A stretch of 6,707 nt of DNA, taken from the NCBI GenBank assembly GCA_021850505.1, contig JAJZLW010000100.1, positions 1-6,707 on the forward strand. The letters run 5' to 3'. The notes beneath the pieces were generated by a model, which worked only from the letters and a program-made list of their open reading frames with translations, was not told the origin of the DNA and searched no databases. A program made the translations under genes and the position numbers. This DNA is from Thermoplasmata archaeon (GTDB taxonomy: Archaea > Thermoplasmatota > Thermoplasmata > Thermoplasmatales > Thermoplasmataceae). The number at the start of each line of letters is the position of its first letter. Within the stretch, counting starts at the first letter, position 1. Below are positions 1-6,181 of the stretch, piece by piece.

Positions 1-802
1 GGTCTTCACTGAACCTTATAATATTGTGGTATGGAGGATGCAGGAAAACAATCTGTACTGTCTTTATATTATATGATCCAAGTAAACTGAGGAAATCAAG
101 GGTCAGCGTATCTCCCTGATGAAGTTCAGTCACAACACCATTTTGAATGCCTAATTCCTTCGTTTTAGAAGCTACTTTGCTCACTACATCACTGTTTAAT
201 TCAATTCCTATGGCATTCCTATGCACCCTTGCAGCTTCAAAGAGTGTCGTTCCGCTTCCGGCAAATGGATCAAGAACCCAGTCGTCTTCTTTTGTATACC
301 GCATCAGAAATTGTCTCGGTATTTCTGGTATGAAATTTCCCCAATACCAGGCAAGATTTTCAGGTGGACTGACCCTCCTGTCAGAAATCCAGAGACTGTC
401 GGTCCTGATATGATTATAGTTCTTCCATTGATTGAGGTTAATATCGTTTATTTTAGTCGTTCTCTTCTCCGATAGCGCTTTCTTGAGCGATTTCAGATAA
501 TATTTTGCCCTTTCAGCGGTATATGAGGCGCTGGCCTTATCAAGATACATTTTGAAGAAATCCAGTGCCACATTTTTCTGATCCTCCGGGTCTTTTATTT
601 TATCCCTTTGATCATAAAGATCAAGGTCTTTCTGGATGAGATCAATTTTTTCCCGTATTTCGCTGATGGTCTTCAACGAAAGTAGATCTTCCGCGATTTT
701 AATTCCTTCATTCGATTCGATCATTATCTTATTTCCCTCTGTATTTGGTTCCTTGGTTTTCTTAACTTTCGATCCCTCCGAACGGGAAGATTTTGATCTC
801 AA
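1..802 (-). CDS. amino-type DNA methyltransferase, 3'-truncated by window edge
   Basis: The reverse strand is open from 802 to base 1 without a stop (267 codons), so the C-terminus lies outside the window. Numbering from TTG at 802, residues 178-186 read DPFAGSGTT, the S-adenosylmethionine-binding motif I of N6-adenine/N4-cytosine methyltransferases. A motif X-like stretch (FIPEIPRQFLMRY) precedes it, GIEL at 199-202 fits motif II, and HPPY at 255-258 is the catalytic motif IV with His in place of the usual Asp/Asn/Ser. Motif I before IV with only about 70 residues between leaves the target-recognition part N-terminal or beyond the edge. The first ~30 residues are Lys/Ser-rich and residues ~40-125 look helical, perhaps coiled coil. 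TTG 802 is the first possible start after the in-frame stop at 892-890 and has a strong Shine-Dalgarno; ATG 724 is an alternative. No restriction enzyme is visible, so orphan or restriction-linked status is unknown. An RNA substrate is less likely but not excluded. Confidence 0.85.
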   Translation of the reverse strand, partial: MRSKSSRSEGSKVKKTKEPNTEGNKIMIESNEGIKIAEDLLSLKTISEIREKIDLIQKDLDLYDQRDKIKDPEDQKNVALDFFKMYLDKASASYTAERAKYYLKSLKKALSEKRTTKINDINLNQWKNYNHIRTDSLWISDRRVSPPENLAWYWGNFIPEIPRQFLMRYTKEDDWVLDPFAGSGTTLFEAARVHRNAIGIELNSDVVSKVASKTKELGIQNGVVTELHQGDTLTLDFLSLLGSYNIKTVQIVFLHPPYHNIIRFSED

Positions 803-969: not shown

Positions 970-1917
970 ATGCCAGATAATATAGGGGCGATCACAGAGT
1001 TCCTGAAAAGCAGAATTCTGAAATATTTCCCTGACCTGAAAATTGAAAGTTCCGTTCTCATTGACAGCGGATGGGATAATCATGTGTTAATAATTAACAA
1101 TGAAATCGTTTTCAGGTTTCCAAAAAACAGTATCCAGGTTTCGAAGTTGTTGACGGAAATAAAATTATTGCAATCTTTGAAGGGTTTTCCATTCGAAATT
1201 CCAGACTATTCCTATCTTGTAAATGAAGGAGATGTGTTTGGCGGATACAGACTGATCCATGGTAATCCCTTGAATTCTGTGAAAAAACTTTCAGATTCAC
1301 TTCTGGAGGATTTCGGCATCCTGTTTTCATATCTGTGGAGCATCAAACCTGAAAAGTGTTCTGAAATTGGTGTTCCAATCCATTCTCGGTTTACATGGTT
1401 GAAGCACCTGAATGGGTTAATCAGTACTTTTTCCGACTCGCTTAACAGATTTATTCCTGCAGATTTTTTTCGTTCGTTGAAAGACCTTTCTGCTAATATT
1501 CTTTCAGACATGGACGAGAATGACCTCAAATTAATTCATGGGGACCTTTATAGAGAGAATGTCAGGATAACTGAAAGCGGCAATAATATTGCTGGTATCA
1601 TAGACTGGTCTGATGCTTCATTTGGTGATGTTGCTCTCGACATCGCTGCTGTCTCAATGGATTTTGACCTGACAGACCTGTTTCCCATTCTCGGAAGATT
1701 TAAGGGCCTCCTTAATGTGAATACTGCAAGAAGAATCAGGCTTTATCAGATGATAGAACCTCTTTATGCCGCCGATTATTTCTCGGAAACAGGAAACGTT
1801 GAAGAGGTTTCGAGGAGGTGCCGAATTATAACAGACAAATGGATGGATGATATGAAGTTCAGAAATATTTATAACATAAATGACGTTAAAGACCTATGGC
1901 ATACGAAGCAGAGATAA
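970..1917 (+). CDS. APH/choline-kinase-fold phosphotransferase
   Basis: A 315-residue protein of the aminoglycoside-phosphotransferase enzyme family (protein-kinase-like fold). The N-lobe carries GWDNHV near residues 34-39 and VFRFPK (47-52), where R49 takes the place of the usual nucleotide-binding lysine of FKFP-type proteins, followed by a probable helix-C glutamate at E63. The catalytic loop is HGDLYRENV at 190-198 (D192 catalytic base, N197 metal ligand). The metal-binding DWSD at 212-215 is followed by FGD at 218-220. All expected active residues are present, so an active ATP-dependent kinase is expected. The length is normal for the family. ATG 970 has AGAGGA nine bases upstream, and an in-frame stop lies at 952-954. 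The last 22 bases overlap the VWA gene, implying coupled expression. Family members phosphorylate antibiotics, choline, sugars or amino acids, so the substrate cannot be read from the sequence; an antibiotic-resistance role is not supported here. GC is lower than in the two genes downstream. Confidence 0.88.
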   Translation: MPDNIGAITEFLKSRILKYFPDLKIESSVLIDSGWDNHVLIINNEIVFRFPKNSIQVSKLLTEIKLLQSLKGFPFEIPDYSYLVNEGDVFGGYRLIHGNPLNSVKKLSDSLLEDFGILFSYLWSIKPEKCSEIGVPIHSRFTWLKHLNGLISTFSDSLNRFIPADFFRSLKDLSANILSDMDENDLKLIHGDLYRENVRITESGNNIAGIIDWSDASFGDVALDIAAVSMDFDLTDLFPILGRFKGLLNVNTARRIRLYQMIEPLYAADYFSETGNVEEVSRRCRIITDKWMDDMKFRNIYNINDVKDLWHTKQR

Positions 1918-2735
1918 GCAGAACAAACCCGTCTCTAATATTGTTTTTGATTGATCAATCCAGATCTATGAGTCATAAACTCCCTGGTGGACAGAGATCG
2001 AAAGCACAGGAAGCGTCAGACGCAATTAACAGGCAGATTGGCGATTTTGTTCTCAGGTGCACGAAAAGTGATGGCATCAGGGATTATTTCCACATAGGCG
2101 TTATTGGCTATGGTTTTGTTACTGGCAAGGCAGATTCAATATTAAAAGGTGAAAAAGTCCATCCAATATCTGAGCTGGCAGCGAATCCCCTAAAGACGGA
2201 AAAAAGGAAGATGAAGGTACCTGATGGATCCGGAGGTGACATTGAAGTGGATTATGATTTCGGTGTCTGGTTCGATCCTGTTGCGAATGGAGACACGCCA
2301 ATGTGCAAGGCACTGTCAATGGCAAAAGATATCATGCATGAATGGGTCGAGGATCACCCAGCATCATATCCGCCGATCCTCATTAACATCACGGATGGCC
2401 AGGCAACAGATGGGGATCCTGAGGAGATTGCCAGGGAAATCCTTGAGCTCAGGACATCAGATGGTACCCCGTTGATCTGGAACTGCCACCTGTCGTCAAA
2501 TCCTGCCACTCCAATAGCATTTCCAAGTGATGATTTGCAGCTTCCTGATGATAAATATGCCAAATCACTGTATTCAATCTCAAGCGTCCTTCCGTCGCAG
2601 TACGTCGGATACGCAAGAGAAATGCAGATTGACATGAAGGACAACGCGAGGGCATATGTTTTCAACGCTCAGCTGGAACAGCTGGTTGAATTCATTGATA
2701 TCGGGACGCGCGGACCACAGGGGCAGATGCAATAG
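1896..2735 (+). CDS. VWA-domain protein of TerY-like kinase/phosphatase triad
   Basis: A 279-residue protein that is almost entirely one von Willebrand factor A domain, with no signal peptide or membrane segment, so presumably cytoplasmic. The metal-ion-dependent adhesion site looks complete: D20-x-S22-x-S24 (DQSRSMS, with Arg where Gly is common), T134 in GDTPM, and D167 in ITDGQATDGDP. The start AEISRTNPSLILFLIDQS and the stretch DYFHIGVIGYG near 63-73 resemble VWA proteins that sit beside PP2C phosphatases and protein kinases, including TerY-type triads. Such proteins are thought to bind partners through the metal site; the partner here is unknown. ATG 1896 lies inside the end of the phosphotransferase gene (22-base overlap) and lacks a clear Shine-Dalgarno, which suggests coupled translation. 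That start is supported because the family-like N-terminus begins there. The stop TAG at 2733-2735 directly abuts the next gene. No TerD or TerC gene is in the window, so the symbol terY is not assigned. Confidence 0.88.
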   Translation: MAYEAEISRTNPSLILFLIDQSRSMSHKLPGGQRSKAQEASDAINRQIGDFVLRCTKSDGIRDYFHIGVIGYGFVTGKADSILKGEKVHPISELAANPLKTEKRKMKVPDGSGGDIEVDYDFGVWFDPVANGDTPMCKALSMAKDIMHEWVEDHPASYPPILINITDGQATDGDPEEIAREILELRTSDGTPLIWNCHLSSNPATPIAFPSDDLQLPDDKYAKSLYSISSVLPSQYVGYAREMQIDMKDNARAYVFNAQLEQLVEFIDIGTRGPQGQMQ

Positions 2736-3467
2736 TTGCTCTCGGTCAGGGAATTTCACAGGCAGAAATCCGGTTACAGGGCAGAGGAGTATGAGGATGC
2801 TTACTCTCTGCTTCCAGAGAAGGGTGCTTTTGCAATAGCAGACGGTGCTACTGAGTCCAGTTTTTCAAAGGTCTGGGCAAAAGCACTCGTCAAGACGTTT
2901 ACAGATGATCCTCCCAGCCTGGAAATGAATGACAGGGAGGCGATGAAACACATTCTTGATCGTGCCAGAAAGGAATGGTACGGAAGCATCTCATGGGAGG
3001 GCCTTCCATGGTTCCAGAAGAACAAGGCAATACTTGGATCGTATTCAACTTTCCTGGGTATTCAGATTGAAATGGAAGGGCAGAAGAGATACAGATGCAT
3101 CACAATAGGTGACTCATGCATTTTCCATGTGAGCGGTTCCAAGATGGAATCTTTCCCGTATTCCGATTACCGGGATCTAAATTTTACGCCGAGATTGATG
3201 TGGAGCGGACATGGCTATCCAATTGGTTTGAGCAAGGATGTCGAGGTACCGGGAATGGAAGTCAAATATGGCAGGCTCAAGGACGGAGATACACTGATAC
3301 TTGCAACGGATGCAATCTCAAAATGGATGCTGCAGAACAAGACAGAGAAACCATGGCTTTCCATTCTCGAGAATGCAGACAACTGGGATTCATTTATAGG
3401 GTCGCTCATATCAAGCGGCAAAATGAGAAATGATGATGTTACTATCGTATTCATCTCTGTATCTTAG
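2736..3467 (+). CDS. PP2C-family Ser/Thr protein phosphatase
   Basis: A 243-residue metal-dependent phosphatase catalytic domain without extra domains or membrane segments. The PP2C acidic motifs are in order: YEDA with D21, FAIADGATES with D36-G37, IGDS with D126, LATDA with D192, and NDDVT at 232-236. The metal ligands therefore appear intact and activity is expected: hydrolysis of phospho-Ser/Thr on a partner, probably reversing the nearby kinase. The start is TTG at 2736, immediately after the VWA stop and in the same reading frame. The next in-frame ATG is at residue 64, after two key motifs, so TTG is the only workable start unless the stop is read through. A weak AGGGGC at 2719-2724 could act as ribosome-binding site. 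The gene ends with TAG inside the convergent kinase gene (17 bases shared). GC is near 50% in a sampled block, like the VWA gene. Confidence 0.88.
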   Translation: MLSVREFHRQKSGYRAEEYEDAYSLLPEKGAFAIADGATESSFSKVWAKALVKTFTDDPPSLEMNDREAMKHILDRARKEWYGSISWEGLPWFQKNKAILGSYSTFLGIQIEMEGQKRYRCITIGDSCIFHVSGSKMESFPYSDYRDLNFTPRLMWSGHGYPIGLSKDVEVPGMEVKYGRLKDGDTLILATDAISKWMLQNKTEKPWLSILENADNWDSFIGSLISSGKMRNDDVTIVFISVS

Positions 3468-5088
3468 CTATATTTTCAGGGTTTATCCCATCCCATAAGG
3501 GATCGTGAGAAAGCGCCTCTATGAGCAGACGGGCAAGCTTTTTTATCCTGCCTCGTATCTGAAGTAATTCCGAAAGCACCGCAGATCCTGAAGGATCAGT
3601 GAAGTCACTCCTTCTGAATATCAGGCAATCCTGATCATTCTTGTTGTATTTAGCCCAGAATGTTTCATCATAGCTTACAGCTAAAATCGATAGATATATG
3701 ACAAGAACGGAAAAGTTGTCAAGGTTGTAGGAATACGAGTCAAGATTCCTGTTAGGATGCTGAAAATGATCATGTCCATTCTCAGTTGCCTTCAGCCCTT
3801 TGAGAGCCGGCACGAACATGCCATCGTAGTCGACAAGTGAAACAGAACCGTTCTCACTCACCATGATGTTGTCGCCAGAGAGATCGCCGTGTGCTATTCC
3901 AGCTGAGTGTATCCTTATCGCAACAGAGAGGAAATTCTTAGCAAGATCCTGTAACTTCCTGGGTGAATCCAGATGTTCAGATATGTAAGCGTTAAGGTTC
4001 TGGCCATCGATCCACTGCATTAAAAGTGATGGGAAATACACAGCTGGATTCTTTAGTGTGCGAATGGATTTGGGGAGATAATTGAAGTTGACGAATATGC
4101 CTCCTCCATCAAACGCACTTAAAGATTTTGAAATGATATAGTACCTCCTGCTCAGATCAGGTTTGCTCCTTGTAAAGCACTTTAGGGCATGAGCAGTAGA
4201 GCTGTTCTGCAGCTTGAATATTGTGCCGTAATTTCCGGACGAATAGACGACATTGCCCGGTATATTTACATAAGGATTTGGTACCACCGAGGAAGAGAGG
4301 ATCTCAGGATAATCCTGTGAAATGCTGAAGGAAAGATTCTGCATTGCGCGTGAATAATCACTCTGCCCAGGCCACTGTGCATTTGAAGGAACTGAGTCAA
4401 GATCAGGCGGAACTTCGACAACCTGTGGTATTTCAGGTTGATTCAAATGTGTCTGATCTTTATTTACACCATTATCCGGCTGAACATCTCCGGCTGGGAT
4501 CGTTGCAGGTTCTTTGGTATTTTTGGCTTGACTCTTTTCTCCATCCTTTTGAACCGATTCCTTTGCTGTCTTCTGTCTCAATGGTACTGAACGGGTTTTG
4601 GTGAACAGGAAGCTTGCGGCTATGAAAACAATAAAACCAAAGAGTACAAGCGTGTAGATTGGAACAACGAAGGAAATGATGATGGCACCGGCTATTGTTA
4701 AAACATAAGGTACCTTTTTTCTATTACCTTCGGCCAGAAATATGAAAATACCGCCTATTACAAAAAGCAAAACAAGAAGCAGGATTTCGTCCTCAACAAA
4801 TTTCAACGGGTTGTCATATAATGAAGCAACCGCGATTATGAGGAGTGAGAGCAGAGATATAGATGATCTATAGGAGCCAACTGTTTTTTTGGCAACCATA
4901 AATCCAAGAATTAGAAGCAGAATAATCGTAACGAAAACAATATGGTAATTCTCAAAATAGCCGAAGATAAGATATATTTTGGTATTTCTAGCGATATAGA
5001 TGAGAGCAGAGCTCACGAACTGCAGCGGTATAATTATAAGAAATAGTATGAGAAATAATACTGCAAGAAGTTTATTCTTTGTGCTCAT
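3451..5088 (-). CDS. membrane-anchored Ser/Thr protein kinase
   Basis: A 545-residue protein in three parts. Residues ~7-163 hold about six hydrophobic helices (roughly 7-27, 49-66, 75-91, 101-119, 127-143, 145-162). Residues ~165-270 are a polar Lys/Gln/Pro-rich linker. Residues ~275-545 are a kinase domain. Visible kinase features are a glycine loop SGNYGTIF at 284-291, the lysine K303 in ALKCF, the catalytic loop HGDLSGDN at 400-407 (D402, N407; Gly replaces the Arg of HRD), and DYDG at 420-423 in place of DFG. The stretch LVDYDGMFVPALKG, then HFQHPNR and LDNFSVLVIYLS, resembles kinases that travel with VWA and PP2C genes. An even helix count with a short N-terminus would place the kinase inside the cell. 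It presumably phosphorylates Ser/Thr of unknown proteins and is opposed by the adjacent PP2C. ATG 5086-5088 has a TATA-like box about 36 bases upstream and no clear Shine-Dalgarno. It is convergent with the PP2C gene and the two 3' ends overlap by 17 bases. Confidence 0.87.
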   Translation of the reverse strand: MSTKNKLLAVLFLILFLIIIPLQFVSSALIYIARNTKIYLIFGYFENYHIVFVTIILLLILGFMVAKKTVGSYRSSISLLSLLIIAVASLYDNPLKFVEDEILLLVLLFVIGGIFIFLAEGNRKKVPYVLTIAGAIIISFVVPIYTLVLFGFIVFIAASFLFTKTRSVPLRQKTAKESVQKDGEKSQAKNTKEPATIPAGDVQPDNGVNKDQTHLNQPEIPQVVEVPPDLDSVPSNAQWPGQSDYSRAMQNLSFSISQDYPEILSSSVVPNPYVNIPGNVVYSSGNYGTIFKLQNSSTAHALKCFTRSKPDLSRRYYIISKSLSAFDGGGIFVNFNYLPKSIRTLKNPAVYFPSLLMQWIDGQNLNAYISEHLDSPRKLQDLAKNFLSVAIRIHSAGIAHGDLSGDNIMVSENGSVSLVDYDGMFVPALKGLKATENGHDHFQHPNRNLDSYSYNLDNFSVLVIYLSILAVSYDETFWAKYNKNDQDCLIFRRSDFTDPSGSAVLSELLQIRGRIKKLARLLIEALSHDPLWDGINPENIAKIQR

Positions 5089-5257: not shown

Positions 5258-6181
5258 GTGATAAAAATAAGCGGGTTGGAGGAAAGAAACCTGCAATTTG
5301 AGTGGAGTGCGAAATCAAAGGAGATCACATCCGTTCCACTTGATGAATTTGTTTCCCTTGATATACCTGATTCTTCTACTTTACAGATCAGGGAAGATTC
5401 TGATGTTTCTGTGCTGACAAAACTAGATCCATCCAAATACGACGCTGCGGTCGGCCCTATAAAGGTTGATGGTGTAACAAAAGGGGATACCCTGATGGTG
5501 GAGATTGTAAAAATTAATACATGGAGATGGGGATGGACTTCGATTTCACCATCATTCGGCCTGCTCAAAGGAAGATTCAGCGATCACCTTATTCACTGGG
5601 ATATTGGGCTTTCGCACGCAGTAAGCAGAAACAGGTTTCTATCAGGAATCAAGATTCCTGTAAGACCCTTTCTGGGTGTCGTATCTACTTTGCCCGGGAA
5701 AGGAAGATACCCTATGATTCCACCCAGGCAATTTGGAGGTAATATGGATAACCGGCTTTTGACTGTGGGTTCAATACTGTATCTTCCTGTCAATGTAGAT
5801 GGTGCTATGGTTTCCTTCGGGGACCCACATGCGGCGCAGGGTGATGGTGAAGTTTGTGGAACAGCTATAGAGACAGGAGCTGAAGTGACGGTCAGGTTCC
5901 GTGTGATCAAAAACCAGACTGTAAAATATCCCAGAGCCATGATCCCGGCGTTTGGAGAGGGTATTTGTATCTTGACTACGGGAATATCGAGAAGTTTACG
6001 AAAGGCAGCATTGATAGCTATAGAAGAGATGATAGATGACATCACACGGACAACAGGTCTGAGCGAAGAAGAAGCGTATGCGCTATGCAGCGTTGCAGGA
6101 AACCTGAAAATTTCTGAAATAGTGGATGAACCGAATTATGTAGTTTCTCTCACTCTTCCCAAGAGTCTGCTATACCATTAG
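5258..6181 (+). CDS. acetamidase/formamidase family amidohydrolase
   Basis: A 307-residue cytoplasmic protein of the FmdA/AmdA family, which hydrolyses short amides such as formamide or acetamide to the acid and ammonia using a metal centre. Recognisable blocks are GPIKVDGVTKGDTLMVEI from residue 66, PPRQFGGNMD ending at D164, YLPV followed by GDPHAAQGDGEVCGTAIE from residue 188 (H191 and E198 among likely metal or catalytic residues), and LKISEIVDEPN near the C-terminus. The length matches the compact form of the family. GTG 5258 is chosen because it sits 28 bases after a TATA-like box and gives the first in-frame start before the conserved region; there is no good Shine-Dalgarno, so it is probably leaderless. 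Substrate is inferred from family only; formamide, acetamide or another small amide are all possible. It is divergent from the kinase and has no evident link to signalling. Confidence 0.9.
   Translation: MIKISGLEERNLQFEWSAKSKEITSVPLDEFVSLDIPDSSTLQIREDSDVSVLTKLDPSKYDAAVGPIKVDGVTKGDTLMVEIVKINTWRWGWTSISPSFGLLKGRFSDHLIHWDIGLSHAVSRNRFLSGIKIPVRPFLGVVSTLPGKGRYPMIPPRQFGGNMDNRLLTVGSILYLPVNVDGAMVSFGDPHAAQGDGEVCGTAIETGAEVTVRFRVIKNQTVKYPRAMIPAFGEGICILTTGISRSLRKAALIAIEEMIDDITRTTGLSEEEAYALCSVAGNLKISEIVDEPNYVVSLTLPKSLLYH

Follow-up and report, generated by a model that had tools for sequence, protein, structure and literature searches.

TerY-P systems unite a TerY-type VWA protein, a PP2C-type phosphatase and a Ser/Thr protein kinase. 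Passages of PMC7699616 and PMC11090510 describe bacterial TerY-P kinases that end in an OB fold or a zinc ribbon, propose a metal-sensing switch, and report that stand-alone triads with an OB-fold kinase are active against T7-like phages. Triads whose kinase carries a zinc ribbon belong to ter loci and to CoCoNuT systems of type II/III-A (Anantharaman et al. 2012, as cited in part of PMC11090510), and an excerpt of PMC4978471 places a triad in a Helicobacter island. In Sulfolobus, the kinases ArnC and ArnD phosphorylate the VWA protein ArnB, according to a section of PMC6509490. Here we describe a TerY-P triad in a 6707-nucleotide (nt) stretch of DNA from a Thermoplasmata archaeon (contig JAJZLW010000100.1; the whole stretch is called the window below). 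This triad is a distinct, well-bounded archaeal subtype of TerY-P and a new variant of a known triad; its convergent gene layout and the membrane module of its kinase are real differences from the bacterial triad. That it is ter-free, as the initial annotation had put it, is not new in itself, because the above passages of PMC7699616 and PMC11090510 already describe stand-alone triads.

Four adjacent open reading frames (ORFs) are confirmed in the window, encoding an APH-like protein, the VWA protein (TerY), PP2C and the Ser/Thr kinase (Table 1), and the ORFs, profile matches and conserved residues agree with the motifs that the initial annotation had named in them. The best matches of the VWA protein, PP2C and kinase are the PADLOC models TerY, PP2C and STK_OB, respectively, which upholds the earlier proposal of an archaeal VWA/PP2C/kinase triad of the TerY kind. 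Going by their names and numbers (PDLC02222-4), we take these models to represent the anti-phage TerY-P system. The VWA protein scores under Pfam's own VWA cut-off (24.1 of 27 bits) and is full-length on the TerY model (PDLC02224), with a match that spans profile positions 1-275 of 277. Its metal-site (MIDAS) residues D20, S22, S24, T134 and D167 are invariant among 17 aligned TerY proteins. PP2C carries the acidic motifs DGA (36), GDS (125), ATDA (190) and NDD (232), and its gene has a TTG start immediately 3' of the TerY stop.

Absent from the initial annotation were the location of the kinase gene on the opposite strand, its 17-nt overlap with the PP2C gene, the 22-nt overlap between the end of the APH-like gene and the start of TerY, and the hydrophobic helices at the kinase N-terminus. 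The convergent layout recurs widely (labels beginning with L, G and P denote TerY loci, genomes and proteins, respectively). In all 44 Thermoplasmata loci in which all three genes were detected, the kinase gene lies tail-to-tail against TerY-PP2C, and in 32 of them the PP2C and kinase genes share 7-17 nt at their ends, whereas the kinase is on the TerY strand in 7/7 bacterial loci with all three genes, a set in which the kinase of L052 lies ~5 kb away and L050 has two copies. Three Thermoplasmata loci stand outside the 44. In L039, the kinase has the expected orientation and runs of N mask part of it, and the contig of L006 stops inside PP2C. In L003, a transposon-like gene start, presumably that of an IS605-type transposon gene, occupies positions 10570-10889 behind PP2C, at the expected kinase site, and is followed by the contig end.

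The kinase motifs GNYG (285-288), K303, HGD (400-402), N407 and DYDG (420-423) are invariant among 32 aligned sequences, and a Foldseek search with a model of the window kinase gave 1840 matches in the PDB (E<=0.001), with protein kinases making up all 50 of those listed. The kinase covers the STK_OB profile only at 4-288 of 562, and the OB half of that model has no counterpart: the kinase domain is the end of the protein, with neither a C-terminal OB fold nor a C-terminal zinc ribbon. Archaeal kinases with an intact N-terminus have 110-288 residues before the kinase domain and 0-17 after it, whereas bacterial kinase ORFs (n=13) have 2-43 before and 57-1503 after.

Residues 1-165 of the window kinase are hydrophobic helices. 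An AlphaFold2 model based on 32 sequences (mean per-residue confidence, or pLDDT, 79; predicted TM-score, or pTM, 0.59) consists of a helical module, with helices at 3-19, 22-36, 38-66, 72-88, 97-118, 122-141 and 145-161, and a kinase fold, joined by a linker that is disordered at residues 164-216. By the positive-inside rule, both ends of the module are predicted to be cytoplasmic, and its extracytoplasmic loops look short. No Pfam family scores above its cut-off on the module. A second model, of the kinase P0039 from a relative, has strands at residues 23-108 where the window kinase has helices, and the matches listed by Foldseek for both models are only kinases or kinase complexes, which leaves the module fold without a name.

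Three kinds of N-terminal module occur among the 40 archaeal kinases with an intact N-terminus. Twelve have 4-6 membrane helices by hydrophobicity, 14 are PH-like and 12 are beta-sandwich, the last two names being based on weak Pfam matches (PF24081, 0.084; PF00630, 0.0021 and 0.019), on the strand pattern of one model and, for PH, also on our own reading of the sequence. The remaining two, from Thermoplasma, have two membrane helices by hydrophobicity. Eight of the 12 membrane-helix modules are alike by profile, and four (L011-L014) are joined to them by BLAST and not by profile. The 40 kinases are those other than L003, L006, L007, L023, L034, L036 and L039, in which the kinase is cut, broken or masked. 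Module kind agrees with three TerY clades in 40/40 cases: a membrane clade (18 rows, support 89/91), a PH-like clade (16 rows, support 100/99) and a beta-sandwich clade (14 rows, support 100/98). In L034 (Thermogymnomonas acidicola), the kinase appears to be broken into two ORFs (82 and 252 amino acids, aa), with one TGA inside the whole-genome match, and the TerY and PP2C frames are open despite this.

A search of a species-genome collection with the TerY alignment yielded 61 loci, of which 14 are bacterial and 47 belong to Thermoplasmata (L057, from an uncultured archaeon, being counted there by its tree position). TerY is present in 47/61 sampled genomes of the family of the window clade (Thermoplasmataceae in the broad sense), in 53/117 genomes of the order, and in 7/8 genomes of the order that holds Sysuiplasma. 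Among 300 sampled genomes of the class, 42 have a match, 38 with E <1e-130 and four near 1e-40, and none was found in five genomes of a neighbouring family in a search run without a positive control. Close matches amount to one gene per genome, as the two in G004 are pieces of a single gene. Searches for each of the three genes recovered all of them in 6/6 TerY-positive genomes. Of the 14 TerY-negative genomes in the family, 13 lack both PP2C (window PP2C as query, E<=1e-4) and a triad-type kinase; two of these, G097 and G124, have only short kinase-motif matches (5e-7 and 3e-6), similar to those that G002 and G008 have besides their triad kinase. The fourteenth, G301, has PP2C and the kinase, and the last 34 TerY residues at a contig end. 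Scatter independent of the VWA/PP2C pair, which the initial annotation had named as evidence against a system, is seen for the APH-like gene and not for the kinase, which is present in 45 of the 47 Thermoplasmata TerY loci (the 44 and L039; L003 and L006 cannot be judged) and is absent from the genomes that lack TerY and PP2C. In archaea, the distances of TerY, PP2C and kinase correlate with one another, with r at 0.75-0.82 and a Mantel p of 0.001, a pattern that joint inheritance would produce. The triad is conserved, occurs in single copy, is either complete or absent, and is inherited as one unit.

A second, distant kind of TerY-P occurs in other Thermoplasmata (two of four distant carriers inspected). 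In L083 (G179), TerY, PP2C and the kinase are all on one strand, and the 3.2-kb contig of L084 (G273) has TerY on one strand and PP2C on the other. We found no open-access paper that combines TerY with Thermoplasma or Thermoplasmata, and parts of PMC2887360 and PMC1262709 hold nothing on the triad.

Table 1. Coordinates of the triad, the domains of its kinase and the neighbouring genes in the window
Feature	Position	Strand	Basis
DNA methyltransferase, incomplete at window edge	2-802	-	PADLOC MTase_II 4.2e-67
APH-like small-molecule phosphotransferase, 315 aa, neighbour outside core	970-1917	+	PF01636 2.8e-13
TerY-type VWA, 279 aa, intact MIDAS metal site	1896-2735	+	PADLOC TerY 4e-93
PP2C-type protein phosphatase, 243 aa	2736-3467	+	PADLOC PP2C 8.9e-28; PF13672 (PP2C_2) 6.3e-6
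Membrane Ser/Thr kinase, 545 aa, tail-to-tail with TerY-PP2C	3451-5088	-	PADLOC STK_OB 1.3e-58; PF00069 6.5e-8
Kinase N-terminal membrane module, residues 1-165	4594-5088	-	AlphaFold2 model and hydrophobicity
Kinase linker, residues 166-235, mostly disordered	4384-4593	-	pLDDT <50 at residues 164-216
Kinase catalytic domain, residues 236-545	3454-4383	-	Foldseek, invariant catalytic residues
Tail-to-tail overlap of PP2C and kinase genes, 17 nt	3451-3467	no strand	ORF coordinates
Acetamidase/formamidase (FmdA)	5258-6181	+	profile match
Nre	from 6274	+	profile match

The triad is probably an archaeal TerY-P phospho-switch subtype that Thermoplasmataceae in the broad sense retain on the chromosome as a signalling unit. 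The cells are not known to have a rigid wall. The membrane module would hold the kinase at the cytoplasmic face of the membrane and would alter its activity under membrane, acid or metal stress. The kinase would phosphorylate TerY, a client held by the TerY metal site, or both, PP2C would reset the phosphorylation, and the overlap of the convergent genes may keep kinase and phosphatase in balance. As for the APH-like gene, it would encode an independent small-molecule kinase and have come to overlap TerY in the window's own lineage. More tentatively, TerY-P may have been domesticated in Thermoplasmataceae as a general, non-defence phospho-switch, with an input domain (membrane, PH-like or beta-sandwich) exchanged between deep clades and with kinase and phosphatase genes locked tail-to-tail, their transcripts balancing each other.

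Several points weigh against a signalling unit of this kind. Its stimulus, target and phosphorylation steps are ones that we infer. Thirteen of the 61 family genomes, whose completeness is not stated, appear to be without the triad, which therefore cannot be called essential on this evidence. Shared ancestry alone also raises distance correlations such as those above. TerY of five Sysuiplasmatales loci (L010, together with L005, L006, L008 and L009, whose coordinates match genomes of that order) falls within the family, with a support of 89/96 that narrowly misses the starred level, which suggests at least one transfer of the triad between orders. Support for the clade that unites every membrane-type kinase is just 89/91, and the membrane module has a pLDDT of 65-88. 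Finally, the homologous stand-alone triads with OB-fold kinases are, in the phage work excerpted above (PMC7699616, PMC11090510), anti-phage systems; by this analogy, neither chromosomal stability nor presence in most of a family would be proof of a non-defence role.

A stably kept anti-viral defence, in which the membrane kinase would sense infection at the envelope while TerY and PP2C would gate growth arrest, much as OB-fold TerY-P acts against T7-like phages, is on balance unlikely. It would fit the matches of all three proteins to PADLOC TerY, PP2C and STK_OB, models whose anti-phage meaning we presume, and the DNA methyltransferase (a match to PADLOC MTase_II) that adjoins the triad in the window clade. 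However, the second, OB half of STK_OB lacks a counterpart, and the triad is not patchy, being single-copy in most of the family. No TerY was found in viral contigs in two pattern scans, and its two plasmid matches are both cyanobacterial. The flanking genes that can be named are housekeeping-like (Nre, formamidase and thermopsin, with a proteasome subunit read in L011). The methyltransferase, the one neighbour compared with PADLOC, is seen in the window clade alone, with no restriction enzyme recognised beside the L001 copy, and is perhaps an orphan methylase.

The methyltransferase gene is syntenic with the triad in L001, L002, L003, L007 and L015 and was not matched in L004; further out in L001 lie genes that we read as peptidase- and reductase-like. 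In eight loci of one clade (L018, L019, L020, L021, L027, L032, L038 and L039), a protein of 763-792 aa is encoded directly upstream of TerY and in the same direction, and it is thermopsin-like in the sole member scanned, L018.

It is distinctly unlikely that the target of the triad is soluble or a nucleic acid and that the N-terminal modules are anchors with no part in sensing. The modules differ wholly between clades while the kinase domain is conserved, and the extracytoplasmic loops appear short, both of which would suit simple anchors, but the kind of module is constant within each clade, and this constancy suggests a selected role.

The APH-like protein, which the initial annotation had joined to the triad in a four-part system, scores above the Pfam gathering threshold for PF01636 (50.6 bits, cut-off 23.2). 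It is not supported as an aminoglycoside, macrolide or peptide-antibiotic resistance enzyme, since its best NCBIfam match, capreomycin phosphotransferase, reaches 55.2 of the 390 bits needed and it falls far below every NCBIfam cut-off for such enzymes. A search with the protein gave nine matches, eight of them close (58-96% identity), and all eight end in DLWHTKQR/K, the tail that an overlap with TerY would encode and by which we assign them TerY adjacency. The C-terminal 19 residues are nearly invariant in P0121-P0128, even at 58% overall identity, and the codons of the last seven lie in the overlap with the start of TerY. An APH gene adjoins TerY in 6/47 Thermoplasmata loci (L001, L002, L003, L004, L007 and L015); in five of these six the protein is just 35-40% identical to that of the window and its gene ends 70-94 nt before TerY. 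Beside TerY in 39 others, all with upstream room, there is no APH match, and L024 and L035 start too near TerY to judge.

Within the order, 37 of 101 sampled genomes have an APH match at E<=1e-5. Of the ten in which identity is at least 35%, the gene is beside TerY in three (G351, G003 and G350) and away from it in three (G076, G195 and G155), and four have no TerY match at all (G111, G328, G332 and G334). We take the genes flanking APH in G076, G328 and G195 to be those for adenylosuccinate synthetase and isocitrate dehydrogenase. The ratio of non-synonymous to synonymous substitution (dN/dS) between the window and L007 is 0.27 for APH, indicating purifying selection, 0.22 for the membrane part of the kinase, 0.18 for the methyltransferase, 0.08 for FmdA and 0.04 for PP2C, and is not computable for TerY. 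In an APH tree of 30 rows, in which database rows were labelled as linked from their tail only, the TerY-linked genes need two label changes; one origin is compatible with this, and a single old linkage of APH to TerY is possible.

This distribution speaks against the four genes as one system. Since APH occurs away from TerY and in TerY-less genomes, the APH-like protein is most likely a small-molecule kinase whose gene varies in position and became fixed beside the triad in one lineage, and this gene is probably just a neighbour rather than part of the core. A scheme in which the protein phosphorylates a small molecule for the triad to sense or use would account for the 22-nt overlap, the shared tail, the six adjacent loci and the purifying selection, but is very unlikely given the 39 of the other 41 loci with no APH beside TerY, the seven of ten genomes that have it elsewhere, four of them without a TerY match, the 70-94-nt gap beyond the window's own group, a dN/dS above those of the other four genes or gene parts for which it was calculated, and the similar synteny of the methyltransferase, formamidase and Nre genes in the same clade.

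One lead concerns the phosphatase. The PPM phosphatase of Thermoplasma volcanium (Dahche et al. 2009, a title in the reference list of PMC3052367) could be the triad PP2C. The window PP2C has a single match in the Thermoplasma sp. genome G001, and this is the PP2C of the triad there. A second PP2C exists in G083 and in the window relatives G002-G004, and a search with PF13672 did not recover the G001 triad phosphatase and returned nothing in G090, G207 and G145, so the link stays a lead only.

In the archaeal subtype, the input domain sits at a known terminus of the kinase and comes in three natural versions, and the form is single-copy, so the signal could be found by domain swaps. The subtype provides a candidate membrane phospho-signalling pathway for wall-less, acid-loving archaea. 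It also suggests that a module classed as a defence against phages can belong stably to the chromosome of a family. If TerY-P has indeed been domesticated, this subtype would be a TerY-P that serves outside defence and whose sensor has a defined position.

Among described systems, the window triad resembles OB-fold TerY-P, said to be the anti-phage triad of Gao and colleagues from 2020, in that its TerY VWA protein, PP2C and kinase domain match the three models taken to represent that system and in standing alone. As to TerD, the description of the triad as ter-free holds: PF02342 was found in none of ten related genomes, in a search that covered TerD and not TerC and whose controls were positive in 2/14. 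Unlike the bacterial genes, which are co-directional, the window kinase gene is convergent, and its product lacks the C-terminal OB half and has an N-terminal membrane module; the archaeal triad is also chromosomal and present in most of a family. With the TerY-P of ter loci and of CoCoNuT systems it has the three protein classes in common. It differs from the former in the absence of TerD from all ten relatives and from the latter in a kinase with no C-terminal extension and hence no zinc ribbon. No cnuHE helicase and nuclease genes are present in the 6.7-kb window; the flanks of relatives were read in part and not scanned for them.

Bacterial PrkC/PknB-PP2C pairs likewise combine a membrane kinase with PP2C but are not known to include TerY, and in PrkC and PknB the kinase domain is N-terminal and the sensor lies outside. 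The window kinase has weak similarity to StkP and PknB chains (E 8e-4 to 0.02). The Arn network, as covered in a section of PMC6509490, resembles the triad in having an archaeal VWA protein under kinases and a phosphatase in the network; it differs in that its phosphatase is PP2A, of another family, and in its FHA partner ArnA. A paralogue of ArnB has a known structure (5A8J), whereas the window TerY has no sequence match to a PDB chain at E<=0.1. By analogy, and as far as that section of PMC6509490 goes, ArnB is the closest tested archaeal parallel.

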